Assembly: GCF_001885215.1 (NCBI RefSeq) | Contig: NZ_CP018091.1 | Location: 992,001 to 1,056,000, forward strand | Origin: Synechococcus sp. SynAce01 | Lineage (GTDB): Bacteria > Cyanobacteriota > Cyanobacteriia > PCC-6307 > Cyanobiaceae | DNA length: 64,000 bases | Direction of reading: 5' to 3' | Shown: positions 10,311-25,745 of the stretch, piece by piece | Layout of the letters: each line of letters begins with the position of its first letter | Position numbering within the stretch: position 1 is the first letter of the stretch | Program-made: the position numbers and the translations under genes | Notes under the pieces: model-generated | What the model was told of the DNA's origin: nothing | Database searches by the model: none | What the model saw: only the letters and a program-made list of their open reading frames with translations

Positions 10311-11337
10311 GGCTGATACGCAGTAAGCAAAAAGGCTCAATGGCCAACTCGATTAGGTAGCAAACTCCGCACACCTCAGGAGTCGTTCCGGCCGTGCTTG
10401 ACAGCTGCAGATGGCATGAACCACACGCTCGGTCATTGCCGCCAGATTGAACCGCCGATTGAAGCGGTAGCTGAAGGCGCCCAAGTAGCGATCAGCGTAC
10501 TTTTCGAAGCGAAGGGCATGGAAGCTGCCGCTGAAGCTGGTTTTCAAGTTGCTGAGCACCGTGTTAATCCAACGGAATTCTGGTAATTCATTGGGATGAC
10601 GACCCTTTACGACCACAGGATGATGGAAGCAACCGACTTCTGCAACGGCGCGAAAGCAAGCCAGCCCATCGGAGATCACTTCACAGCCTATCGCCAGTGA
10701 ATCTTGGGCCCAATCAGCAATAGCGGCAAAAGAGAACGTGGGCACGGTGGCAAGTTTTATATACCGGGGGTGGCCCGCCTCATCGACAGAGACGGCTGCC
10801 ACGACCGGCACCTTGTTCTCCGATCCACGACCAGGCTTGCCACCACAGCGTTCTCCGCCAAGGTAGGCATCATCCACCTGCACCCTTCCTCTGAGGACAT
10901 AGGCGCCATCACGTTCTTTCATTGCCTGCATGATCTTGTTCTGAAGCAACCATGCCGTTCGGTAGTTCACACCGAGATGACGCCTCAGAGCTAGTGAGGA
11001 GATTCCTGTCTTGGCTTGGCCGACGAGGTAGAAGGCAAGGAACCAGGTGGTCAGAGGTAACTTTGTTGCCTCCAAGATGGTACCGGCCGTGAGGGTGGCT
11101 TGATGACGACAGCTCCGGCACTGATAGCGCTTGTGGCGCCTGCCAATGATGAGCCCGTACTCCTTGCCCTCACAACGTGGGCAACGGAAACCATCAGGCC
11201 AGCGCGCCTGTTCCAGGGCAACTTCACATTTTTGCTCGGTTCCGTAGAGCTCAATAAACTGGGGCAGCGACAGGCTGGCCTGGAACTGGATCCGATTCAT
11301 AGCCATGGCACTGACGACTGGTATATGCGTACCAGCC
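10311..11337 (-). mobile_element. IS1595-type insertion sequence
   Basis: A complete transposase gene is bounded by 12-base terminal inverted repeats with one mismatch: GGCTGATACGCA at 10311-10322 and its partner TGCGTACCAGCC at 11326-11337. The total length of 1027 bases is usual for single-gene IS1595 elements. The flanking eight bases (CGGGTAAC and TAGATCCC) do not match, so no target duplication is visible; the ends may have been altered after insertion. Confidence 0.75.
10353..11306 (-). CDS. IS1595 family (ISXO2-like) transposase
   Basis: The 317-residue product begins with a zinc ribbon (CPRC at about 44-47, CRSC at about 63-66) and continues with an ISXO2-like DDE domain: VDDAYLGGE, VISDGL and the WINTVLSNLK segment. 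This is the intact architecture of IS1595 transposases, which cut and paste the element. The frame is uninterrupted, so the enzyme may be active. ATG codons at 11306 and 11300 are both usable starts. The zinc ribbon and catalytic motifs make the call firm even though no target duplication was found. Confidence 0.92.
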   Translation of the reverse strand: MAMNRIQFQASLSLPQFIELYGTEQKCEVALEQARWPDGFRCPRCEGKEYGLIIGRRHKRYQCRSCRHQATLTAGTILEATKLPLTTWFLAFYLVGQAKTGISSLALRRHLGVNYRTAWLLQNKIMQAMKERDGAYVLRGRVQVDDAYLGGERCGGKPGRGSENKVPVVAAVSVDEAGHPRYIKLATVPTFSFAAIADWAQDSLAIGCEVISDGLACFRAVAEVGCFHHPVVVKGRHPNELPEFRWINTVLSNLKTSFSGSFHALRFEKYADRYLGAFSYRFNRRFNLAAMTERVVHAICSCQARPERLLRCAEFAT

Positions 11338-14969: not shown

Positions 14970-16076
14970 GTGCACGGGCCGGATGGTGCCACAAGGTCGG
15001 TGAGCACGCCATCTCTTGAACTGCTCTACGAGCAACGTGCGAAATGTTCGATGACGCTCAAACCTTCCACAGGGCCCGGTGAAATCAGCATCACCAAGGC
15101 ATTGAGCCATTTACAGCGGCCGTTTCGCACGCCTGACATGGTGGGTGTTGCCATGCGGGCGCTACTGGCCAACAAGCTGGCAGACCTGCCACGACCAGCT
15201 GACGGCAGAACACTGCAACGCTGGCAAGCGCTAGCCGAAGTTGGAGCCAACGATCTTTCATTGGCCAAAGTCTATGAAGGCCATACCGATGCGCTGGCCA
15301 TCCTTGCAGAACTCCACGGTCCGATAGGTCAAGGAATCTGGGCGGTCTGGGCCGCCGAAACTCCACAATCACGCGTCAAATTCCTTGCGGGCAAACACGG
15401 AGGCGCGCTCTACGGAACGAAGGCTTGGTGCTCAGGGGCGGCACTGGCCGATTCAGCACTGATGACGGCCTGGACGCAGGATGAGCAACCGATCCTCGTG
15501 GCGCTGCAGCTGCGCCAACCTGGGCTCCGCATTGAAACTCAGCAGTGGAATGCGGTCGGGATGTCGGCCACTGAAAGTGCCACAGTCATCCTCAATGGTG
15601 TTCCTGCAGTCGCAGTCGGTGGTCAAGGAGAGTATGGCGGCCGTCCCGGTTTCTGGCAGGGCGGTGCCGGCATCGCAGCGGTTTGGTACGGGGCCACAGT
15701 GGCCATCGCTAAAGCACTTGCCACATCTTCGAAAGTTGCCAGCGATCCGCATGCCGCCGCCCATCTGGGCGCCATGGACAGCACCTTGCGCGCCGCCCGT
15801 GCGCTGCTCATCGAAACCGCCACATGGATCGACACCCATCCAATGGCAGACACCAAGTCAGCCGCGCTGCGCGTGCGAGCCACTGTGGAATCAACGGCCA
15901 ACGACGTCTTGCAGCGCACGGGGCGGGCACTGGGCCCGGGACTGCTCTGTAGCGATGCCATTCATGCCCAGCGCTGCGCAGACCTCCCCGTCTTCTTGCG
16001 TCAGAGTCATGCGGAGCATGATCTTGCTGCCCTCGGACAATCTGTTAAGGGCCATTCCGCAAGGTGGTCATTATGA
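14970..16076 (+). CDS. Acyl-CoA dehydrogenase-like protein of a glycoconjugate cluster
   Basis: The protein has the layout of an acyl-CoA dehydrogenase: a helical N-terminal part (LAKVYEGHTDALAILAELHG), a middle beta domain (GTKAWCSGAALADSALMTA) and a C-terminal helical bundle (DSTLRAARALLIETATWID). It is shorter than catabolic enzymes (about 340-370 residues) and diverged, so flavin chemistry is not assured. Its frame overlaps the next gene by four bases (ATGA at 16073), and that gene overlaps the third, giving one operon. Starts are uncertain: GTG 14970, GTG 15000 and ATG 15051 are all possible and none has a strong ribosome site. The same gene trio occurs in other bacteria from memory, but its product is unknown. 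Confidence 0.65.
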   Translation: MHGPDGATRSVSTPSLELLYEQRAKCSMTLKPSTGPGEISITKALSHLQRPFRTPDMVGVAMRALLANKLADLPRPADGRTLQRWQALAEVGANDLSLAKVYEGHTDALAILAELHGPIGQGIWAVWAAETPQSRVKFLAGKHGGALYGTKAWCSGAALADSALMTAWTQDEQPILVALQLRQPGLRIETQQWNAVGMSATESATVILNGVPAVAVGGQGEYGGRPGFWQGGAGIAAVWYGATVAIAKALATSSKVASDPHAAAHLGAMDSTLRAARALLIETATWIDTHPMADTKSAALRVRATVESTANDVLQRTGRALGPGLLCSDAIHAQRCADLPVFLRQSHAEHDLAALGQSVKGHSARWSL

Positions 16077-17998
16077 CAGCAATCCAGTATGCGGGCGGAT
16101 CAATTAAGGATGCGCTGATCACGCGGTCGTTGGATTTAGGGCTGGTAGCACCACATCCAAACCTACGTTCTTGTGTGGTTGTCCCGGCTCGCAACGAGGA
16201 AGCGGTTTTGCCAGCACTCATTGCTGCCCTAGCCGCTCAGCGAAATCTTGCCGGTGCCAAGCTCGATCCAAGCAGTTTCGAGGTCATCGTTCTAGTGAAC
16301 AACTGCAGCGATTCCACAGCTTCAGTTGGCTTCGATCTGTGCAGACAGTTCCACCAGCTCCATCTCCACATCGCTGACGTATCTTTTGACGCCGATACGG
16401 CCCATGTGGGGCGTGCACGCCAAGCACTTTTTGACGTGGCCTTGGCCCGTTTTGAAAAGCTTGGGCGCCCCAACGGATTGATTCTCACCACTGACGCTGA
16501 TTCACGGCCAGCAACCGATTGGATAGCCCAGACCGAGGCAGAGATTGCCAAGGGTGTGGTCGGCGTTGGCGGCCGCATTACTCTCCATCGAGAAGAAACA
16601 GCCGAACTGCAAGCAGGTGTACGCAAGTTCCTATTTCTCGATATTGCCTACCGACGGGCAATGGAAGAATTGCGCTGGCTCTACGCCCCAGAAGCGCATG
16701 ATCCATTTCCCAGGCATCACCAGCACTTCGGCGCAAGTTTCGCTGTCACTGCGGCCGCCTACGTACAGGCCGGCGGCATGCCACTCCAGCGGAGTAGCGA
16801 AGACGTGGCCCTCTATCGAGCCATCATTGATTCAGGTGGTCGCTTTCGTCATAGCGCGCAAGTCAGGGTCCAGACATCAGCACGCATGGTCGGCAGGGCA
16901 CAAGGCGGCTTAGCCGACGCACTTGACTGCTGGGATCAACAAACCCGCCATGCGGAACTCGTACTGGTTGAATCTGCTGCAGACGCCGAGGCACGTCTGG
17001 CCAGATTAGGGCTTTTATGCGCTGGGAATCCTGGCTGCATTCCACCGTCTTCGTTAATCATGACGCCAGACAAGCCTCTGCCAGGACAGGGGGCAGAGAT
17101 TGGAGCCACCCTGCATTCCTTACGCGAAATCTGTGCCTCACTGAGGCCAATCACAATGACGGAGCGCCTCAATCAGGCGCGTTACCGATTCGGTCAGATC
17201 GATGCAGATGTCAAACCCCACAGAAACCAGATCATGCCAACTCCACTGCTACCCAAATCATTACTCGAAGAGCCAGAGCGTCATCCATTGCGTCCCGCAA
17301 AGGCAGCACTGGCTTTGGGGTCAACGGTCATCGTTGCTCCCCACCCAGACGATGAAACCCTGGGCTGCGGCGGTCTGCTGGCCTTACTTGCCCAGAGCGG
17401 TATCCCCACAAAGGTTCTGTTGATGACGAACGGCTCGCGCTCCCATCCAAACTCACTATCGCATCCGTACGAAAAGCTCGCAGAAGTGCGCGAGGGTGAA
17501 ACAATCAACGCCCTCACTGCACTTGGAGTCTCACCGAACGCAGCAACGTTCCTACGCTATGGCGATGGCGAATTACCACAACCTTGCACCCCAGCCTTTG
17601 GCCAAACGATTGGACGCCTTAGAGATCTATTCACTGAACTTGAAGCGAACACCGTTTTGGTGCCATGGCGACGAGATCCCCATGACGATCACAAAGCCAC
17701 TTGGCATCTGCTGAGATCAACCTTCGCTGGCTTGGCTGAGCGCCCGCGCTGGTTGGAATATCCAATTTGGGCTTGGCAGGATGCAAACAATGAAGCAGCA
17801 CCAAGCAGCCATGAAGCCTGTGCCTGGAGGCTCGATATTTCATCCATACTGCTGCAAAAGCAACACGCTATCGCACAGCACCGTTCTCAGCTGGGTACAT
17901 TAATCCATGACGATCCAGAAGGATTCGTGCTGAGGCCGGAAATGATCAGCTACTTCGTACAGCCTTGGGAACTTTTCATTGAGCCAAACGATGACTGA
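16073..17998 (+). CDS. Fused GT2 glycosyltransferase and PIG-L deacetylase
   Basis: The first 350 residues are a family 2 glycosyltransferase: VVPARNEEAVLPALI at the nucleotide site and LTTDADSRPATDW with the metal-binding DxD. From about residue 420 there is a PIG-L/LmbE deacetylase: VIVAPHPDDETLGCGG and PWRRDPHDDH give the zinc ligands and general base. One chain could thus transfer an N-acetyl sugar and deacetylate it, as in GlcNAc-PI or mycothiol/bacillithiol-like routes. The ATG at 16073 overlaps the upstream stop. The stop at 17998 overlaps the methyltransferase start. In related clusters these domains are usually on separate chains or fused to the methyltransferase. The acceptor is unknown. 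Confidence 0.8.
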   Translation: MTAIQYAGGSIKDALITRSLDLGLVAPHPNLRSCVVVPARNEEAVLPALIAALAAQRNLAGAKLDPSSFEVIVLVNNCSDSTASVGFDLCRQFHQLHLHIADVSFDADTAHVGRARQALFDVALARFEKLGRPNGLILTTDADSRPATDWIAQTEAEIAKGVVGVGGRITLHREETAELQAGVRKFLFLDIAYRRAMEELRWLYAPEAHDPFPRHHQHFGASFAVTAAAYVQAGGMPLQRSSEDVALYRAIIDSGGRFRHSAQVRVQTSARMVGRAQGGLADALDCWDQQTRHAELVLVESAADAEARLARLGLLCAGNPGCIPPSSLIMTPDKPLPGQGAEIGATLHSLREICASLRPITMTERLNQARYRFGQIDADVKPHRNQIMPTPLLPKSLLEEPERHPLRPAKAALALGSTVIVAPHPDDETLGCGGLLALLAQSGIPTKVLLMTNGSRSHPNSLSHPYEKLAEVREGETINALTALGVSPNAATFLRYGDGELPQPCTPAFGQTIGRLRDLFTELEANTVLVPWRRDPHDDHKATWHLLRSTFAGLAERPRWLEYPIWAWQDANNEAAPSSHEACAWRLDISSILLQKQHAIAQHRSQLGTLIHDDPEGFVLRPEMISYFVQPWELFIEPNDD

Positions 17999-18611
17999 AG
18001 TAACACCACACATCAAAGCCACATGCAGCGGCTCCAGCTGCTTTGGGCGTGACTACTTCAATCTCTTGTACACACAGAACAGCGATCCATGGGCGTTTGA
18101 ATCAAGCCCATACGAAGCAGCAAAATACGCGGCAACATTGGCAGTTCTACCACAGCTACATTATTGCAATGCCCTAGAACTTGGTTGCTCCATCGGTGTA
18201 CTGACACAGCAACTGGCCTTAAGGTGCAATCAATTACTTGCCACTGACATCTCGGAAGTAGCCCTCGCGAAAGCGGAAGTGCGCTGCAAATACCTCAATA
18301 ACGTCAGATTCCAAAGACGTGATCTCAGCACAGATTTCACAAATGGACAATTTGATCTGATCCTGGTATCAGAAGTTGCCAACTATCTTTCGCAGCAAGA
18401 GTTAGAAGTTTTACGCTCCAACATCGCTAATGCCTTAATCCCTGGCGGCAGCCTGTTATTGGTACACTACACAGGCAAAACGCACTATCCACTCACTGCA
18501 GACCAAGTACACCAAACATTCCTTGAATGGGAAGGGGTGGCATGGAAATCTGAAGAACGTCAGTGCAGGGTGGACTACCGTCTCGATCTACTGACAAAAA
18601 TCAACTCGTAG
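17991..18611 (+). CDS. NodS-like SAM-dependent methyltransferase
   Basis: The 206-residue protein has DPWAFESSPYEAAKYAATL followed by the class I SAM-binding loop ALELGCSIGVLTQQLA, LLATDIS and FDLILVSEVANYL. This matches the NodS-type methyltransferases that N-methylate an amino sugar exposed by a deacetylase. This fits its place directly after the transferase-deacetylase gene, with which it overlaps by eight bases. The ATG at 17991 gives the best family start. Together the three genes suggest synthesis of a modified, N-methylated glycan or glycolipid. Confidence 0.8.
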   Translation: MTEVTPHIKATCSGSSCFGRDYFNLLYTQNSDPWAFESSPYEAAKYAATLAVLPQLHYCNALELGCSIGVLTQQLALRCNQLLATDISEVALAKAEVRCKYLNNVRFQRRDLSTDFTNGQFDLILVSEVANYLSQQELEVLRSNIANALIPGGSLLLVHYTGKTHYPLTADQVHQTFLEWEGVAWKSEERQCRVDYRLDLLTKINS

Positions 18612-19056: not shown

Positions 19057-20427
19057 ATGACCGTAAAAAGTATTAATCCGGCAACACGTGAAGTCATGTG
19101 GAGCTTTAAGACACTAACGAAATACGAGGCCCTGGACGCTGTTGACAAGGCACATGAGATGTTCGGTCAATGGAGGCATACGAGTTTTGAGGTGCGCAAA
19201 GATTTCATGCTCAGATTTGCTAGACAACTAAGAGAGCACAGGCAAGAACTAGCCGAGCTGATCACCTTAGAGATGGGGAAACGAATTGCAGAGAGTCTCG
19301 ATGAAATCGAGCTCAGCGCCGAGATTGTAGATTATTATGCCCATAACGCTGAAGAATTCCTCTCCAATCAAAAACTTGAACTTGAGGGGTCAGAAGCCTA
19401 CATCCAACACGCACCGATCGGAGTGCTTATTGGGGTGATGCCATGGAACTTCCCGTTTTATCAAGTGGTTCGATTCATCGCCCCCAACATTATGGCTGGC
19501 AATACCACATTGGTCCGCCATGCCAGTATCGTGCCTCAGTGCGCAGAGCGGATTGCCAACCTGCTGCAGAAGAGCGGTCTGCCAGAGGGGGTTTTTACAA
19601 ATCTGCTGATCCCCCACGAATTCATGGCAACGTTAATCGCACACAAAGCCGTACGTGGTGTGTCATTAACAGGCAGCGAAAGTGCCGGCAGTTCGGTTGC
19701 TTCGCTGGCTGGAAAGAATCTAAAGCCTTCCGTTCTGGAATTGGGAGGCAATGATGCGTTTATTGTGCTGGAAGATGCAGACTTGGACTTAGCAGTAGAA
19801 CTGGCCATCAAAGGACGGATGGCAAATACAGGACAATCATGTGTCGCCTCCAAGCGAATGATTGTTGTCAAACCAGTAGCAGAGCAATTCATCAATGGGC
19901 TGAAAGTGGGGCTGGAATCCATGAAGCTCGGGGATCCAATGGACCCTAAAACCGATGTAGGCCCATTGTCGTCCGAAAGTGCCGCACAACAACTCGATGA
20001 TCAAGTACAGAAGACCATCGAAGCAGGGGCAACAGTCATTCTCGGTGGAGGGCGACCAGATCGTAAAGGAGCATTCTTTAATCCAACCATCCTGACTGGT
20101 GTAACTCCAAGGATGCCAAGCTATGACCAAGAACTCTTCGGACCCGTGGCTACGGTGTATGTGGTTGAGAACGAAACTGAAGCCATCAAGTTAGCCAATG
20201 ATTCTGCCTACGGCTTGGGGGGTTCAGTCTTCACCAGTAATCCAGAACGTGCCTGTGCCATCGCAGAATCCGTAGACACCGGAATGATGTTCATCAACCA
20301 GCCGACAAACTCTCAGGCTGAACTTCCGTTCGGTGGAATCAAGAATTCAGGATATGGGCGGGAACTTTCGAAACTCGGAATTCTTGAGTTTGTCAACAAG
20401 AAACTCATCAACATCAGCAGAGCCTAA
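19057..20427 (+). CDS. NAD(P)-dependent aldehyde dehydrogenase, succinate-semialdehyde type
   Basis: The 456-residue enzyme has the aldehyde dehydrogenase hallmarks: PWNFPFYQV in the cofactor region, VLELGGNDAF with the general base Glu, NTGQSCVASKR with the nucleophile Cys, and ELFGPVA near the end. The short N-terminus and INPATREV start fit the succinate-semialdehyde dehydrogenase subgroup found in cyanobacteria, which feeds the open-TCA-cycle bypass or GABA shunt. Cysteine context GQSC and the LTGSESAG cofactor loop fit, but substrate is not provable from sequence. It stands alone in the A+T-richer region. Confidence 0.85.
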   Translation: MTVKSINPATREVMWSFKTLTKYEALDAVDKAHEMFGQWRHTSFEVRKDFMLRFARQLREHRQELAELITLEMGKRIAESLDEIELSAEIVDYYAHNAEEFLSNQKLELEGSEAYIQHAPIGVLIGVMPWNFPFYQVVRFIAPNIMAGNTTLVRHASIVPQCAERIANLLQKSGLPEGVFTNLLIPHEFMATLIAHKAVRGVSLTGSESAGSSVASLAGKNLKPSVLELGGNDAFIVLEDADLDLAVELAIKGRMANTGQSCVASKRMIVVKPVAEQFINGLKVGLESMKLGDPMDPKTDVGPLSSESAAQQLDDQVQKTIEAGATVILGGGRPDRKGAFFNPTILTGVTPRMPSYDQELFGPVATVYVVENETEAIKLANDSAYGLGGSVFTSNPERACAIAESVDTGMMFINQPTNSQAELPFGGIKNSGYGRELSKLGILEFVNKKLINISRA

Positions 20428-20854
20428 TTCTCGCCACTGTGCCATGCTTTTTCAATGGCAACAAAGGCATACGCTATAGCGCATTTCAGCAGCTACAAAA
20501 GAAAGGCAGGCGAAATCTTTTGTGCTGATTCTTGATGACTCGTTGTACTGACTACCAATGAAATTCCATGGGAATCTCAAACACATCAGACACCCATCAA
20601 TCAACGTAGTGACAGAGTTCAGGGTTTCATCCCTCCTAGGCGTGGTGATCGCATCCAACAACATAAAGCACGTCATTTTCAGCACACATCTAGCAGAAAT
20701 CTGGCACAGATCCAGCAGGGATGCTCAACGGATTGATGTCTATGGCGGAAAGGGGCAAGAGCCTTCAACGGGCTCGTCAATGCAGACAGAATGGGCAAGT
20801 TTCTTGTGAAGGTCTACGGCAACACACCTCCTTACTCAAACAGCGTGGATAACG
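20428..20854. other. Intergenic region, nothing recognised
   Basis: The 427 bases between the aldehyde dehydrogenase and the short-chain dehydrogenase contain only short frames without family-like sequence. A weak hairpin GCCAT/ATGGC near 20441-20459 may help end the upstream transcript. Confidence 0.35.
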
Positions 20855-21622
20855 ATGGATTTGAATGAAGATGTCGCGATTGTCACCGGGGCAAGCAGCG
20901 GAATTGGGGCTGCGATTGCAGTTGAACTCGCGCGTGCGGGGGCAACGATTGTCATCGCTTACTACTCCGATCCGGCCGGAGCAGATCAGGTCAAGGCAAA
21001 AGTTACGGCCTTTGGCGTACCCTGCTTGACGGTGCAAGGCAACGTCGCAGAACTGGATGATCTCAGGAGAATCTTTGCGACCACGATCAAACGATTTGGA
21101 CGATTAGATATTATGGTGAACAATGCCGGCATCAATCCAGATAGTCCGCTCCTTGAAACAACTGAGGAGCTCTACGATAGAATAATGGCAGTAAATCTTA
21201 AAAGCGCCGTATTCGGTACGCAATTTGCCGCCAAGCAAATGATCAGCCAGGGAAGCGGTGGTCGTATCATTAACATCAGCTCAGTTCATGAAGACTGGCC
21301 AATGCCGGGACATTCGTCCTATTGCATCTCAAAAGGGGGGATGCGAATGCTAACGCGGAATGCAGCGTTAGAACTTGCAAGGTTCAAGATTTCTGTTGTC
21401 GGCGTTGGGCCTGGAGCTGTTGCAACACCGATCAATGAGGATACTCTTGAGGATCCTCAAGAGTTCAGTCGGTTGAATCAATCAATCCCAATCGGCCGCG
21501 TGGCAGAACCTGAAGAAATTGCTCGGATGGTAGCGTTCCTTGCCGGAGATGGCGCCAGCTATCTCACGGCAACAACCGTCATGGTCGATGGCGGAATTAT
21601 GCACGGAAGCACTGGGCTATGA
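20855..21622 (+). CDS. Short-chain dehydrogenase/reductase
   Basis: The 255-residue enzyme shows the classical SDR pattern: TGASSGIG at the cofactor loop (residues 11-18), NNAG near residue 90, and catalytic Ser and Tyr-x-x-x-Lys in ISSVHEDWPMPGHSSYCISK. The C-terminal YLTATTVMVDGG is typical of glucose 1-dehydrogenase-like members. The proposed role is oxidation of a sugar or polyol, but the substrate cannot be told from sequence. The ATG at 20855 is right at the domain start. It converges with the DHFR-like gene. Confidence 0.88.
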   Translation: MDLNEDVAIVTGASSGIGAAIAVELARAGATIVIAYYSDPAGADQVKAKVTAFGVPCLTVQGNVAELDDLRRIFATTIKRFGRLDIMVNNAGINPDSPLLETTEELYDRIMAVNLKSAVFGTQFAAKQMISQGSGGRIINISSVHEDWPMPGHSSYCISKGGMRMLTRNAALELARFKISVVGVGPGAVATPINEDTLEDPQEFSRLNQSIPIGRVAEPEEIARMVAFLAGDGASYLTATTVMVDGGIMHGSTGL

Positions 21623-21705
21623 ACAAGTTCAGATGTTAAGGTCGTTGTTACCAAAAACAGCCATTCCCCAAAGTTAGCGATTCAAACAAACGAGCCCATG
21701 TTCTC

Positions 21706-22263
21706 TCAGGTTGGGACTTCATAGCGAAGTTCCACAAGACCCGGTCCATATTGTTGAACTGCCACGAGTTTCAAAGCTGGAGAAATGATTTGACGTGGCA
21801 AGAGTGGCTTTCCCTTGCATAAGGTAACGGAACCTATCTGCACGATAATCTCATCCAGCAGGTTCTCGTCATAGAACTGAGCCACAAGGCCTCCTCCGCC
21901 AGCTAGCCAAAGATTTCTGCCATGGGCCGCTGCCTTCATGGCTTCGTGCACAGGTCTTACATGTCCAGAAACGAAGCGGATGTCAGCGCCCTCAACGCTT
22001 GGCAGGGTGCGGCTTGAGAACACCCAGGTGGGTTGCTCATAAGGCCAGGCAGAAGGGTTGGCCTGATCTGTGCCATGTTTGATCGTGTGTTGCAGCATCC
22101 AGCCATAGGTTGAAGAACCCATCGCAATGGCACCAACGTCATCTAAGAAAGATGGATAACTGGTTTTATTGACATCACCGAGTGGGAACAGCCAATCCAA
22201 GGAGTCGTCAGGTTTCGAAATGAATCCATCAAGACTAGAGGCGGAATAATATTGAGTACGCAT
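21706..22263 (-). CDS. Dihydrofolate reductase-like (RibD C-terminal) protein
   Basis: The 185-residue product resembles the YyaP/YwjB branch of RibD C-terminal domain proteins: YSASSLDGFISKPDDSLDWL at the start, AIAMGSSTYGWML, and NLWLAGGGGLVAQFYDENLLDE near the end. These bind NADPH with a dihydrofolate reductase fold but have unproven reactions. I chose the ATG at 22263 because MRTQYYSASSLDGF matches the family start; the frame is open to 22302. It lies between the SDR gene (opposite strand) and the exported CsbD gene (same strand, 121 bases upstream of its end). Confidence 0.82.
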   Translation of the reverse strand: MRTQYYSASSLDGFISKPDDSLDWLFPLGDVNKTSYPSFLDDVGAIAMGSSTYGWMLQHTIKHGTDQANPSAWPYEQPTWVFSSRTLPSVEGADIRFVSGHVRPVHEAMKAAAHGRNLWLAGGGGLVAQFYDENLLDEIIVQIGSVTLCKGKPLLPRQIISPALKLVAVQQYGPGLVELRYEVPT

Positions 22264-22384
22264 AGCAAGGCTGGTGGGTTCGTTGTTTCGTTGACTAGAC
22301 ATGCGAACGAACGATCAATGGTCCGAAATGGTGCCTGAACGCACCACACCGGACCATCTGGTTCGTGAAAGGACATGGGCACAA

Positions 22385-22711
22385 TCAGCCCATGCCAGCT
22401 TTGCTCGTAAGCGTGTCAGCTGTATCCCTGGCATTGGCTTCGGCCTGCTTGGCCTTACCGGCTAGGCGATCACCCTCATCACCAGTGACGAGGCCGATCG
22501 ATTCCTGAATCTTACCCTCAACATCTTTGGCAACTGTTTTGGCTTTGTTAGAACCAAACAACATCAGAATGGGGGGTTGGTTGATGGAGGGTTGTGGCGT
22601 CGATGCAGCAAACACTGGGGAAGGAGAGGTGCAGAAAAAAGATAGAACTGAAAACAAGCCACCTAAACAGTAACTCAACGTTGAATGAAAGAGTCTTCGA
22701 AAAAGAATCAT
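22385..22711 (-). CDS. Exported CsbD-like protein, module A
   Basis: The 108-residue product starts with a signal peptide (about residues 1-35, ending SPVFAAS) and then has a short linker with LMLFGSNKA before a CsbD domain (KDVEGKIQESIGLVTGDEGDRLAGKAKQ). The usual CsbD protein is cytoplasmic, so an exported form is notable. The product of 25234-25560 has exactly the same length and aligns without gaps. I chose the ATG at 22711 because it opens the signal peptide; the frame runs further up. This copy lacks the promoter boxes seen before the short copies. It is followed upstream by a DUF1328 gene, as in module B. Confidence 0.8.
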   Translation of the reverse strand: MILFRRLFHSTLSYCLGGLFSVLSFFCTSPSPVFAASTPQPSINQPPILMLFGSNKAKTVAKDVEGKIQESIGLVTGDEGDRLAGKAKQAEANARDTADTLTSKAGMG

Positions 22712-22866
22712 TGGAATGTCCAGAAGTGTTGATGTGATCCAAAGCAAAATGGAATGGATCTTGGCGCAGCAATTGGCAGAAGGCGATGAGCCCTGGCTGA
22801 TAGCCAAATCTCATAGCTAGACTTGATAGGCAAAGCTGACAATGAGACCTGAGGGCCTCATGATGG

Positions 22867-23031
22867 TCAGCCCAGGCTGCGACGCCCCGTCAGGAAGGAG
22901 AACAAGGCAAGCACGAGGAACACAAGGAAGAGGATCTGGGCGATGCCAGCGGCTGAGCCGGCGATCCCACCAAAACCGAGGACTGCGGCAATGACCGCAA
23001 CGACCAGAAAAACAAAAGAATAATGAAGCAT
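22867..23031 (-). CDS. DUF1328 (YtjA-like) membrane microprotein, module A
   Basis: The 54-residue protein reads [35 protein letters not shown] and ends LTGRRSLG. It has two membrane helices joined by the glycine-rich GFGGIAG turn, the standard DUF1328 pattern. These inner-membrane microproteins are often next to CsbD and other stress genes; function unknown. Its length and end are identical to the copy at 25746-25910, with only a few substitutions. It lies between the exported CsbD gene and a lipoprotein gene on the same strand. Confidence 0.9.
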
Positions 23032-23076
23032 GACGAATCACCGAGAAGTGGAAAAATAGACGCTTGGTTAATGCAA

Positions 23077-23451
23077 TTAGTCAGAAGATTGCTTCATCAT
23101 CTGTTCCTGGGTTTCACCAGTGATCAGTCCACTGGCCCGCTCCAGAGATTGCTCAACATTCTTGGAAACAGAGGGTATACCGCCTGGAACAAGCATGCTT
23201 TCCTCCATCATGTCCGTTGTGCCTTGAATTCGCTCTTGCTTGTTGGGGTCGAAGTCTTGGCTGACATCAAGCCCTGACAAGGCAATCCATGCACTGGTAC
23301 CGGATGATGTAACTCCGATCATCGTGGTGACTGGAAGCCCGTCTGCCCAGGCCATTTGGGGGGCATAGCCACAGGCAGTAACGGCGGAGGTTAGAAATAG
23401 CAACCCAGAAACAAGTAACGCCTTTAGCATCTTTGCAATTGATTGTGCCAT
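23077..23451 (-). CDS. Putative lipoprotein with a CsbD-like tail
   Basis: The 124-residue product has a signal peptide with a lipobox (LTSAVTAC, Cys about residue 27), so it may be lipid-anchored; a later AWAD could be a signal peptidase I site instead. The middle part is unfamiliar. The last 30 residues, KNVEQSLERASGLITGETQEQ, resemble the CsbD core of the neighbour (KDVEGKIQESIGLVTGDEGD). I read this as a decayed or divergent CsbD remnant, which is inference. Its place between a DUF1328 gene and a short csbD breaks the order seen in module B. The start ATG at 23451 fits the signal peptide. Confidence 0.55.
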   Translation of the reverse strand: MAQSIAKMLKALLVSGLLFLTSAVTACGYAPQMAWADGLPVTTMIGVTSSGTSAWIALSGLDVSQDFDPNKQERIQGTTDMMEESMLVPGGIPSVSKNVEQSLERASGLITGETQEQMMKQSSD

Positions 23452-23586
23452 CGTATCGAAGGTTAAAGGTAGGTTTGTGCCCTTACTGGCAAAGCCAGAG
23501 GGCTTAAAATCATGATCAAGAACATAGGAAAGAAACGAAGGGCATCAATAGAGAAAAGACGACATTTAGGTGGCACCGCCAGGCAC

Positions 23587-23748
23587 TTAGCCTTTCGCAT
23601 CCTCAACTGCATGCTCCCCTTGGGCTTGAGCTTGTTTCGCTTTGCCAGCTAACTGGTTTTGCTCACTATCAGTAGCTTTGCCAAATGCTTCTTGAACTTT
23701 GCCTTCAATGTCTTTTGCTGTGGCTTGAGCCTTGTCACCTAAACCCAT
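23587..23748 (-). CDS. CsbD family stress protein, module A short copy
   Basis: A 53-residue CsbD domain: MGLGDKAQATAKDIEGKVQE, FGKATDSEQ, QLAGKAKQAQAQGEHAVEDAKG. It differs from the copy at 26021-26182 at only about a dozen positions and has the same length, so the two are recent duplicates. The ATG at 23748 has a GGAG seven to eight bases upstream. The shared promoter and hairpin layout is complete at 23771-23874. It is a highly charged helical protein expected in the cytoplasm under stress. Confidence 0.9.
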   Translation of the reverse strand: MGLGDKAQATAKDIEGKVQEAFGKATDSEQNQLAGKAKQAQAQGEHAVEDAKG

Positions 23749-23770
23749 GATCAACTCCGCGATTGTGAAT

Positions 23771-23874
23771 CGCATCCATGTGGAATGGATGCGTACAATC
23801 AATGTATGACAGGGAGGGCAGAACAGATCAGCCATAGGCTTTGAACTTCCTTGAGCTAACTTGCTTAAAATCTG
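23771..23874 (-). promoter_or_regulatory. Shared csbD promoter layout with 5' hairpin, copy 3
   Basis: On the minus strand: CAGATTT (23874-23868), 12 bases, CTCAAGGAAG (23855-23846), 39 bases, TACATT (23806-23801), 7 bases, then a perfect 8-7-8 hairpin CGCATCCA...TGGATGCG (23793-23771). The hairpin would be the very 5' end of the RNA, 22 bases before the ATG. Confidence 0.78.
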
Positions 23875-24063
23875 TAGTATCTGCTAAAAGTAAAGTCAAC
23901 GATACCAACCAATTGGTTCCTGAGCCAATGGGTATCGAATTCAGCCGGTCGTTTGGCGAAATAGCAGACAACGGTGATCAGCCGCCAAAGCTCCACCCCC
24001 ATTGGATACCACAGATCAACTTCGAGGCATAACCGCCATCAAGGGTCGATCCTTTAGGCGTCA

Positions 24064-25005
24064 TCAATGGATGACTAATTCTCTGGTCTTGTCTCCAACG
24101 GCATCGGCTTCTCCATTTTTATCACTACCTCCATTTCCATCATCAGAAATCGCAACGCCTGAGCCGGTCAGGTCTGAACCGGTCAGGGCAGTGGGATCAT
24201 CATTCCATTCGTCTGTGACGACCTTGAAGCCCGCCAGCACGTTTTGGCCAAAGGAATGGGTAATCGGTACATCAGCCGCATCGCGACCACGGGCGATGAG
24301 AACGCGGCCGATCCGGGGCGTATTGTGTCTGGCATCGAAGGTGTACCAATGGCCATCAAGGTACGCCTCAAACCATCCAGAAAAGTCCATGGGCGCATCA
24401 TGCGGCGGGATGCCGATATCACCCAAAGAACCGGTGCAATAGCGCGCCGGAATGTTCATGCATCGGCAGAAGGTGACAGCAAGGTGGGCAAAATCACGAC
24501 AGACACCGGAGCCTTCCTGATAGGCCTGCCATGCCGTCTTCATTGAATTGGCATGTTCATAACCAAAGCGCAGGTGTCCGTGAACAAAGTCACAGATCGC
24601 CTGAACGCGACCCCAGCCTTGAGGAGACGTGCCGAACAGTCGCCAAGCGATGTTGGAGAGACAATCTGTTTCGCAATAGCGGCTTCCCAACAGAAACAGC
24701 AGCGTCTCATCCGGCAACAGTTCCAAAGGAACCTGCTGAGCCTCAGGCACCATACGATCAGGTTGGCCTGAATCGTTAATCAAGGCATCGGTTGAAAGGC
24801 TGAGCCGTCCCTGGGGAGCCACAAAACGCTGGCAACAGTTACCGAAATGATCACGATAGGCCTTAAAGGGAATAGGCGGATCAAGTTGCGGAGGGTCAGC
24901 GATCAGCAGATCTTGACGGCGTGTCTCATGCACACTCAACATCAAGATCATGGGTGTGGGCTGAGGAATGTCATAGATCAGTTCGTAGCCGATGCGAATT
25001 TTCAT
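24064..25005 (-). CDS. Transglutaminase-like protein
   Basis: The 313-residue product has the bacterial transglutaminase N-terminal region (MKIRIGYELIYDIPQPTPMILML) and a transglutaminase-like core. The catalytic Cys lies in GSGVCRDFAHLAVTFCR (about residue 172), the His in GHWYTFDARHN and the Asp follows. Proteins of this kind often accompany alpha-E and ATP-grasp genes and sometimes the Anbu peptidase; here none of those are adjacent. It may act on peptides or amides. The ATG at 25005 fits. It separates the two CsbD/DUF1328 modules and lies on the same strand as both. Confidence 0.85.
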   Translation of the reverse strand: MKIRIGYELIYDIPQPTPMILMLSVHETRRQDLLIADPPQLDPPIPFKAYRDHFGNCCQRFVAPQGRLSLSTDALINDSGQPDRMVPEAQQVPLELLPDETLLFLLGSRYCETDCLSNIAWRLFGTSPQGWGRVQAICDFVHGHLRFGYEHANSMKTAWQAYQEGSGVCRDFAHLAVTFCRCMNIPARYCTGSLGDIGIPPHDAPMDFSGWFEAYLDGHWYTFDARHNTPRIGRVLIARGRDAADVPITHSFGQNVLAGFKVVTDEWNDDPTALTGSDLTGSGVAISDDGNGGSDKNGEADAVGDKTRELVIH

Positions 25006-25233
25006 AGTGAACTACCTTTCTCTCAAGGCAGTGAGGTGTGGAAGTGCTCGGAAAGTCTGTTGCAAGAAAAGGCTGTTGCAAGAAAAACCCTCAACAAATC
25101 AGTGTGCCATTGCAAGCGGTAGTGAAGCGGGTGCCCATTGTGTCAGTGGTCCGCCATGGATCTGACGATTCCATGGCGGACCAAGAGAGTTCAACGGACT
25201 TCAGACCTTGGGAATCAGGAATCCCGATTGGAC

Positions 25234-25560
25234 TTAGCCCAACCCGGTCGCGTCCTTGACGTCTTCAACGGCATTGCGGACATTAGCTTCGCCTTGCTTG
25301 GCCATGCCAGCGAGACGGTCACCCGGATCACCCGTGGCTTTGCCAATTGATTCCTGGGTTTTTCCTTTGAGCTCCTTGGATGCAGCCGTGGCTTTGTTGG
25401 ATCCGAACAACATCAACACACGTGGCTGACTGATCGCAGCAGGCTGGGGGCTTGCTGCAGACACTGGAGCAGGTATGAAGCTCAGTAGGGCCGCGATTGA
25501 GAGGATGCCGGCGAGACAGAAACTCATCATTGACTGACGAATTCGTTGAATGGTAATCAT
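25234..25560 (-). CDS. Exported CsbD-like protein, module B
   Basis: The product has 108 residues from the ATG at 25560 (112 from the one at 25572). A signal peptide ends near PVSAAS; the linker has VLMLFGSNKA, and the CsbD core is GKTQESIGKATGDPGDRLAGMAKQ. It aligns without gaps to the protein at 22385-22711, with the same signal-linker-CsbD layout. The conserved MLFGSNKA just after the signal peptide is peculiar to these two. The gene is followed upstream by the DUF1328 gene 25746-25910 and a short csbD, completing module B. Confidence 0.8.
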   Translation of the reverse strand: MITIQRIRQSMMSFCLAGILSIAALLSFIPAPVSAASPQPAAISQPRVLMLFGSNKATAASKELKGKTQESIGKATGDPGDRLAGMAKQGEANVRNAVEDVKDATGLG

Positions 25561-25745
25561 TGGATTCTCCAAGGTGGTAGTGGTTTAACGAAAGCATAGA
25601 ACTTTGAATGACGAAAGATCATTCAATTATGGCTTTCTATCAGTAGCTAGGTAGCAGCGTTCGAGCCATGCCGGCCAGGGCTGGTGCACGACCGGCAACG
25701 CCGCAATGGCCTGGATTTGCAAAGCAGAACCTGAATGGATTGGGT

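Follow-up and report, generated by a model that had tools for sequence, protein, structure and literature searches.

Three overlapping genes in a 64,000-nucleotide stretch of the Synechococcus sp. SynAce01 genome (contig NZ_CP018091.1, positions 992,001 to 1,056,000; hereafter the window, in whose own numbering positions are given) carry all of a conserved cassette of four enzymes in a locally rearranged form. These are a flavoprotein of the acyl-CoA dehydrogenase (ACAD) fold, a PIG-L deacetylase, a NodS-like methyltransferase dependent on S-adenosylmethionine (SAM) and a family 2 glycosyltransferase (GT2). We propose that the cassette provides a four-enzyme route to a methylated, oxidised amino-sugar small molecule for stress survival, a reading to which we assign a probability of about one half. 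Gene content, order and conservation, neighbourhoods, mosaic ancestry, the fold of the first protein and its missing catalytic glutamate were all computed.

A conserved four-enzyme cassette

The trio occupies positions 14970-18611 of the forward strand and holds all four families together in three open reading frames (ORFs):

14970..16076, + strand: ORF1, ACAD-fold flavoprotein, type A (Pseudomonadota branch), 368 amino acids from GTG
15276..15284, + strand: E103-x-H105 of ORF1, invariant in all 97 aligned relatives with residues there
15999..16007, + strand: R344-Q345-S346 of ORF1, with Ser at the position of the catalytic Glu of medium-chain acyl-CoA dehydrogenase (MCAD); relatives have Ser, Pro, Ala, Gln or His
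16073..17998, + strand: ORF2, GT2-PIG-L fusion, 641 amino acids from ATG (Pfam)
16073..17233, + strand: GT2 part of ORF2, GT-A fold, with TDADS at residues 140-144 and SSED at 241-244
17234..17998, + strand: PIG-L part of ORF2, with PHPDDE at residues 423-428 and DPHDDH at 535-540
17991..18611, + strand: ORF3, NodS-like SAM methyltransferase, 206 amino acids from ATG (Pfam)

A first-pass annotation of this DNA had described three genes overlapping by four and eight bases, and the ORF calls agree: with ATG starts, ORF1 and ORF2 share ATGA at 16073-16076 and ORF2 and ORF3 share 17991-17998. From these overlaps we infer that the trio is translated as one unit. Alternative starts are possible for ORF2 (GTG at 16064) and ORF3 (TTG at 17979), and the start of ORF1 is uncertain, its residues 1-37 being predicted to be disordered and a later ATG at 15051 being a possible start.

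The same annotation had supposed that the genes belong together, which the neighbourhood survey supports. A scan of named genomes found at least 509 relatives of ORF1, and the best 80 of these, mostly from Pseudomonas, were taken as the counted set, with members of the other families located by tblastn (9 of the 80 locus stretches are shorter than 20 kb). Anchored on ORF1 (80 of 80), these loci hold a methyltransferase gene in 79 cases, PIG-L in 75 and GT2 in 67. ORF1, PIG-L and methyltransferase genes lie on one strand within 4 kb at 73 of the 80, and all four at 59; 20 arbitrary 20-kb stretches contained none of these families, so that the co-occurrence goes beyond chance. In 29 of the 80 loci (within L015-L094) the cassette is followed, after GT2, by a further PIG-L gene on the same strand.

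An even draw of 299 Pseudomonadota genomes contained ORF1 relatives in 14, and the ten of these loci inspected hold four genes in seven cases, three in two and two in one (the Pseudomonadota locus L159 is not independent of L074). ORF1 relatives at E 1e-20 occur in 10 of 386 cyanobacterial genomes, a count that includes the genome of the window. All four families are found at 10 of 10 other cyanobacterial loci (L105, L106 and L108-L115), often with GT2 on the opposite strand. In Nostoc sp. UHCC 0926 the cassette is carried on plasmid pn1, where a second, more distant ORF1 relative lies at 748477-749619 (E 1e-52). By tblastn against plasmids and from annotated regions, the four families are neighbours in Pandoraea, Cupriavidus, Acinetobacter, Sulfitobacter, Paracoccus, Comamonas, Sphingomonas and Kitasatospora. 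Annotation omits the GT2 gene in Pandoraea and Kitasatospora, where tblastn detects it, and the PIG-L gene of Cupriavidus sits beyond a catalase gene. The cassette families recur in Pseudomonadota, Cyanobacteriota, Actinomycetota and Deinococcota. The Deinococcus proteolyticus genes are split into two pairs, about 165 kb from each other on a single plasmid. The ORF1 relative of this species (L166:4094-6337) is 747 amino acids long, extended at the N terminus by several hundred residues for which Pfam gives no match.

ORF1 keeps the ACAD fold and probably belongs to another enzyme class

The first-pass annotation called ORF1 acyl-CoA dehydrogenase-like, and public annotation likewise names its relatives acyl-CoA or acyl-ACP dehydrogenases. 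As far as the fold is concerned this stands: the AlphaFold2 model is a confident ACAD fold (predicted local distance difference test, pLDDT, 85.6; predicted template modelling score, pTM, 0.84) and not a different one. Matches to the Pfam ACAD domains are below threshold (27.4 bits against a cut-off of 33.3 and 18.3 against 22.4), and VIA-align Z scores are about 31 whether the comparison is with dehydrogenases, oxidases or monooxygenases, which leaves the class undecided by fold. At the MCAD glutamate position the alignment has Ser in 83 rows, Pro in 11, Ala in 2, Gln in 1 and His in 1, and Glu in none of the 98 rows with a residue there. This position rests on the true ACAD L121 and a hand count from the conserved Asp, because MAFFT placed a gap there and the reference rows L123, L125 and L126 are not ACADs. 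Moreover, no Glu is among the commonest residues of the aligned helix-G stretch, 228-237. Nine positions (E103, H105, W127, K151, W193, M198, Y222, R303 and D338) are invariant in 97 of 97 rows, which marks a protein under constraint rather than in decay.

Profile searches point towards monooxygenases. DszC, TdsC and MsuC make up the top five matches of the type B profile of ORF1 relatives (7e-22 to 2e-18); two 'type 2 domain' proteins come next, along with a probable monooxygenase, and other ACADs score 2e-13 or weaker. The type A profile has TdsC first (1e-11), then DszC and MsuC among the leading monooxygenases. Entries for KijD3-type FAD-dependent oxidoreductases, DnmZ and nitrososynthases also match the profiles; KijD3 and DnmZ are absent among the ORF1 fold matches listed, an absence that counts nothing against them. 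These class D monooxygenases (DszC, TdsC, MsuC and SfnB) and nitrososynthases have, like ORF1, an ACAD fold without the catalytic Glu. ORF1 misses the SfnB equivalog cut-off (41.3 against 430.9 bits) and is thus a relative of SfnB rather than SfnB itself. Flavoenzymes of this fold that oxidise sugar amines include KijD3, DnmZ and ORF36.

The host genome is 99.85% complete and has no match to the alpha subunit of electron transfer flavoprotein (ETF-alpha, PF00766), a control matching in 10 of 14, nor to PF00441; it has four places with a flavin-reductase domain (PF01613), a possible supply of reduced flavin. Given the absent catalytic Glu, the monooxygenase matches and the lack of ETF-alpha and PF00441 matches in the host, ORF1 is probably not an acyl-CoA dehydrogenase despite its fold. 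It is probably a class-D-like flavin monooxygenase or an amine oxidase acting on an amino sugar, which fits better than acylation, and on the same grounds the earlier suggestion that the product is 'perhaps acylated' is not supported.

Domains and motifs of ORF2 and ORF3

The middle gene joins a sugar transferase and a deacetylase in one chain, as first annotated: Pfam finds PIG-L at 91 bits (cut-off 28.2) and Glycos_transf_2 at 35.7 bits (cut-off 23.3). The metal-site motif [AP]HPDDE is present in 95 of 95 PIG-L ORFs and the second His pair pattern in 84 of 95. Matches of the PIG-L part to the BshB1, BshB2 and MshB models lie below the equivalog cut-offs (BshB1, 50.8 against 182.5; MshB, 18.7 against 224.35). 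The structural model of the GT2 part is of low confidence (pLDDT 65) and resembles the envelope glycosyltransferases PcManGT, WrtF, ArnC and RmlT, weak matches that name neither donor nor acceptor. For ORF3, the proposed NodS likeness holds at the level of the family (Pfam NodS, 66.1 bits against a cut-off of 24; SAM motif ELGCSIG at residue 63) and not at that of the NCBIfam NodS equivalog (77.5 bits against 300). None of the three ORFs reaches an NCBIfam equivalog cut-off. A motif census of the methyltransferase (27 of 101) was not used, the pattern being too narrow.

A local fusion and a mosaic ancestry

How does the window copy differ from its relatives? With every locus scanned for two families in one ORF, the GT2-PIG-L fusion was found only in the window, and we read it as a local rearrangement on the evidence of its closest relative, G332, a genome of the same family. 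There the order is ORF1, GT2, PIG-L, methyltransferase, and GT2 and PIG-L are separate genes with an ATGA overlap. M388 of the fusion (nt 17234) corresponds to where the unfused PIG-L gene of G332 begins, so that ORF2 may hold a separate internal PIG-L start. A recent sequencing artefact was considered and rejected, since the genome is a single contig and the order is the same in G332; a frameshift error is a residual possibility.

The cassette is also of mixed descent. Best matches of the window ORF1 are 60% identical in G332, 50-54% in many Pseudomonadota and 24-27% in other cyanobacteria. For GT2, PIG-L and methyltransferase the values are 39-49% in other cyanobacteria and about 25-42% in type A Pseudomonadota. 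In trees, the ORF1 proteins of the window and G332 fall inside the Pseudomonadota branch, while the other three proteins group with cyanobacteria, alphaproteobacteria or Deinococcus. A single clade of all cyanobacterial ORF1 rows is rejected in a comparison of two trees (log-likelihood difference 87.8, p-AU 0.0002). The trees are quick ones built on longest-start translations, with some long branches flagged. Replacement of ORF1 within a pre-existing cassette is the simplest explanation. Transfer of the whole cassette from Pseudomonadota was rejected, as ORF1 alone groups there. An exchange of this kind suggests that both ORF1 branches do the same work and can replace each other within the operon. 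G+C declines along the cassette (ORF1 61.0%, GT2 part 56.1%, PIG-L part 54.3%, methyltransferase 47.5%), in line with mixed origins yet inside the window's own range.

Two other forms can be set beside the window copy. The separate-gene cassette of Pseudomonas, Burkholderiales and Acinetobacter has the same four families with similarly tight overlaps, and most of its type A proteins are 44-55% identical to the window ORF1; it differs in being unfused, in its order (ACAD, PIG-L, methyltransferase, GT2) and in the lower identity, about 25-42%, of the last three proteins. Its genes are annotated as acyl-CoA/acyl-ACP dehydrogenase, PIG-L deacetylase, class I SAM methyltransferase and glycosyltransferase. 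The form of cyanobacteria and alphaproteobacteria, seen in Nostoc, Sulfitobacter, Paracoccus and Sphingomonas, resembles the window in GT2, PIG-L and methyltransferase (39-49% identical), but it has an ORF1 of the other branch (about 24-29% identical) and an unfused GT2 gene that is first, last or divergent.

Gene neighbourhoods and published loci

A panel of neighbouring families (trehalose/alpha-glucan, catalase, ligD and others) is represented by at least one gene at 60 of the 80 loci: treY and malQ of a glgA-treZ-malQ-treY-glgX operon at 31, ligD at 24, a cardiolipin-synthase-like gene at 16 and catalase at 3. Seven of the ten Pseudomonadota loci of the even draw also have a panel gene (five trehalose/alpha-glucan, one ligD, one catalase). 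The panel families had no match in 20 arbitrary 20-kb stretches of six cassette-holding genomes, a control that is a check on chance and not an unbiased test, the panel having been drawn from cassette neighbourhoods. In independent settings, the Comamonas cassette sits between otsA and otsB, and Acinetobacter soli has both genes within 4 kb of its cassette. Catalase genes lie in the stretch examined in Cupriavidus, Sulfitobacter, Sphingomonas, Xanthomonas, Luteimonas, Paraburkholderia and two cyanobacteria.

In the window itself an alpha-amylase gene is among the neighbours. Positions 19057-25572, after the trio, hold genes for an aldehyde dehydrogenase, a short-chain dehydrogenase/reductase, a RibD-like protein, two similar small proteins of which one is CsbD-like (below the Pfam cut-off), and a transglutaminase-like protein, possibly a stress island. 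An IS1595-type transposase gene lies at 10353-11306, 3.7 kb upstream of the trio.

The cassette is visible in published work on Acinetobacter. In A. baumannii, ACICU_02432 (glycosyltransferase), 02433 (SAM methyltransferase), 02434 (LmbE) and 02435 (acyl-CoA dehydrogenase-related) are assigned to a single operon and drop together 31- to 62-fold in colistin-dependent mutants, in a list that also has trehalose-6-phosphate synthase and phosphatase (otsAB) down (PMC5660220). The adjoining hypothetical gene ACICU_02436 is very highly expressed and down 138- and 227-fold in two colistin-dependent mutants (PMC5660220). The same four families lie beside blsA (PMC6240043). In the passages concerned, neither paper assigns the cassette a function, and passages on the trehalose operons of P. 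syringae and P. aeruginosa (PMC8982409, PMC8084333) leave the cassette genes unnamed. A literature search, with subscription journals mostly outside it, found no paper naming this pathway or its product and no known pathway with these families and a defined product, in keeping with the first-pass statement that no named product is known. The occurrence of the cassette as separate genes in hundreds of genomes, the local fusion and the stress and trehalose neighbours all go beyond that annotation.

A proposed pathway and its alternatives

The route that we infer from the enzyme families, from its sugar donor and acceptor to the sequence of reactions, the product and its role, is as follows. The GT2 part would transfer an N-acetylhexosamine, probably N-acetylglucosamine, to a soluble acceptor; the PIG-L part would then remove the acetyl group from the transferred sugar; the NodS-like enzyme would N-methylate the freed amine; and ORF1 would oxidise the product, perhaps at its amine in the manner of sugar nitrososynthases. 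The resulting compound may help cells survive drying, osmotic or oxidative stress. Trehalose itself is a possible acceptor, the neighbourhood being what points to it. The N-methylated amino-sugar conjugate of the first-pass annotation finds support here, as the set of glycosyltransferase, de-N-acetylase and N-methyltransferase fits it. The Nod factor core works in the same way, nodC, nodB and nodS encoding a GT2 enzyme, a deacetylase and an N-methyltransferase. The putative pathway would parallel it with a flavoenzyme replacing the acyl transfer step: the cassette is without the acyltransferase NodA and has an extra flavoprotein, and its deacetylase is of the PIG-L type whereas that of Nod factor synthesis is of the NodB type.

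Several observations weigh against this proposal. GT2 is missing near ORF1 at 13 of the 80 loci and PIG-L at 5, and the neighbour counts are not independent, both because most of the loci are from Pseudomonas and because the panel came from cassette neighbourhoods. For ORF1, comparison of the predicted fold cannot tell dehydrogenases from monooxygenases; the type A profile places a dehydrogenase, ColB1, just below DszC and MsuC; and residue 349, three positions past S346, is acidic (E in 81 and D in 14 of 97 rows), so that E349 could be a shifted catalytic base. An oxygen-using acyl-CoA oxidase, moreover, would not require ETF. The intact fold, the public annotation and the acidic residue near the usual base all agree with a reading of ORF1 as a diverged acyl-CoA dehydrogenase or oxidase that would modify the acyl chain of an amino-sugar glycolipid. 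We hold this to be improbable, given the lack of Glu at the MCAD position and in helix G, monooxygenases as the best profile matches, a host without ETF-alpha or PF00441 matches, and a trio without acyltransferase or carrier protein.

That the enzymes add N-methylglucosamine to a polysaccharide of the cell envelope or to a lipid-linked sugar is unlikely too, albeit the least so of the alternatives: the GT2 model resembles envelope enzymes, but with the low confidence given above, and no polymerase, flippase or export gene travels with the cassette in the loci read. A low-molecular-weight thiol-like product, akin to mycothiol or bacillithiol with an N-methyl group, would agree with the BshB1, BshB2 and MshB matches, with catalase and other stress neighbours, and with a glycosyltransferase followed by a PIG-L deacetylase (MshB, BshB), as in those pathways. 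It is distinctly doubtful, however: the scores are far under the equivalog cut-offs, the cassette adds a methyltransferase and a flavoprotein, its glycosyltransferase is GT2 whereas MshA and BshA are of the GT4 family, and no cysteine-ligase-like gene was recognised in it. That the genes share stress regulation only, with no single pathway, might account for the variable gene order, the loci lacking GT2 and the split pairs of D. proteolyticus. Tight overlaps, the fusion and the recurrence of the same families across four phyla make this very improbable.

Implications

What would the proposed route mean for the bacteria that carry it? A bolder and less probable reading is that the product of the cassette represents a new class of stress metabolite, an N-methylated, N-oxidised amino-sugar conjugate of the hydroxylamine or nitrone type, made alongside trehalose by a NodC/NodB/NodS-like route with a nitrososynthase-like flavoenzyme and common to soil and water bacteria and Acinetobacter. 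If the four-enzyme route is correct, hundreds of genomes, including those of Acinetobacter and plant-associated Pseudomonas, would encode a dedicated pathway to a protectant beside their trehalose genes, and the first gene of the cassette would be misnamed as an acyl-CoA dehydrogenase. The window copy, with its natural fusion of GT2 and deacetylase, would then offer a compact tool for discovery of the product.

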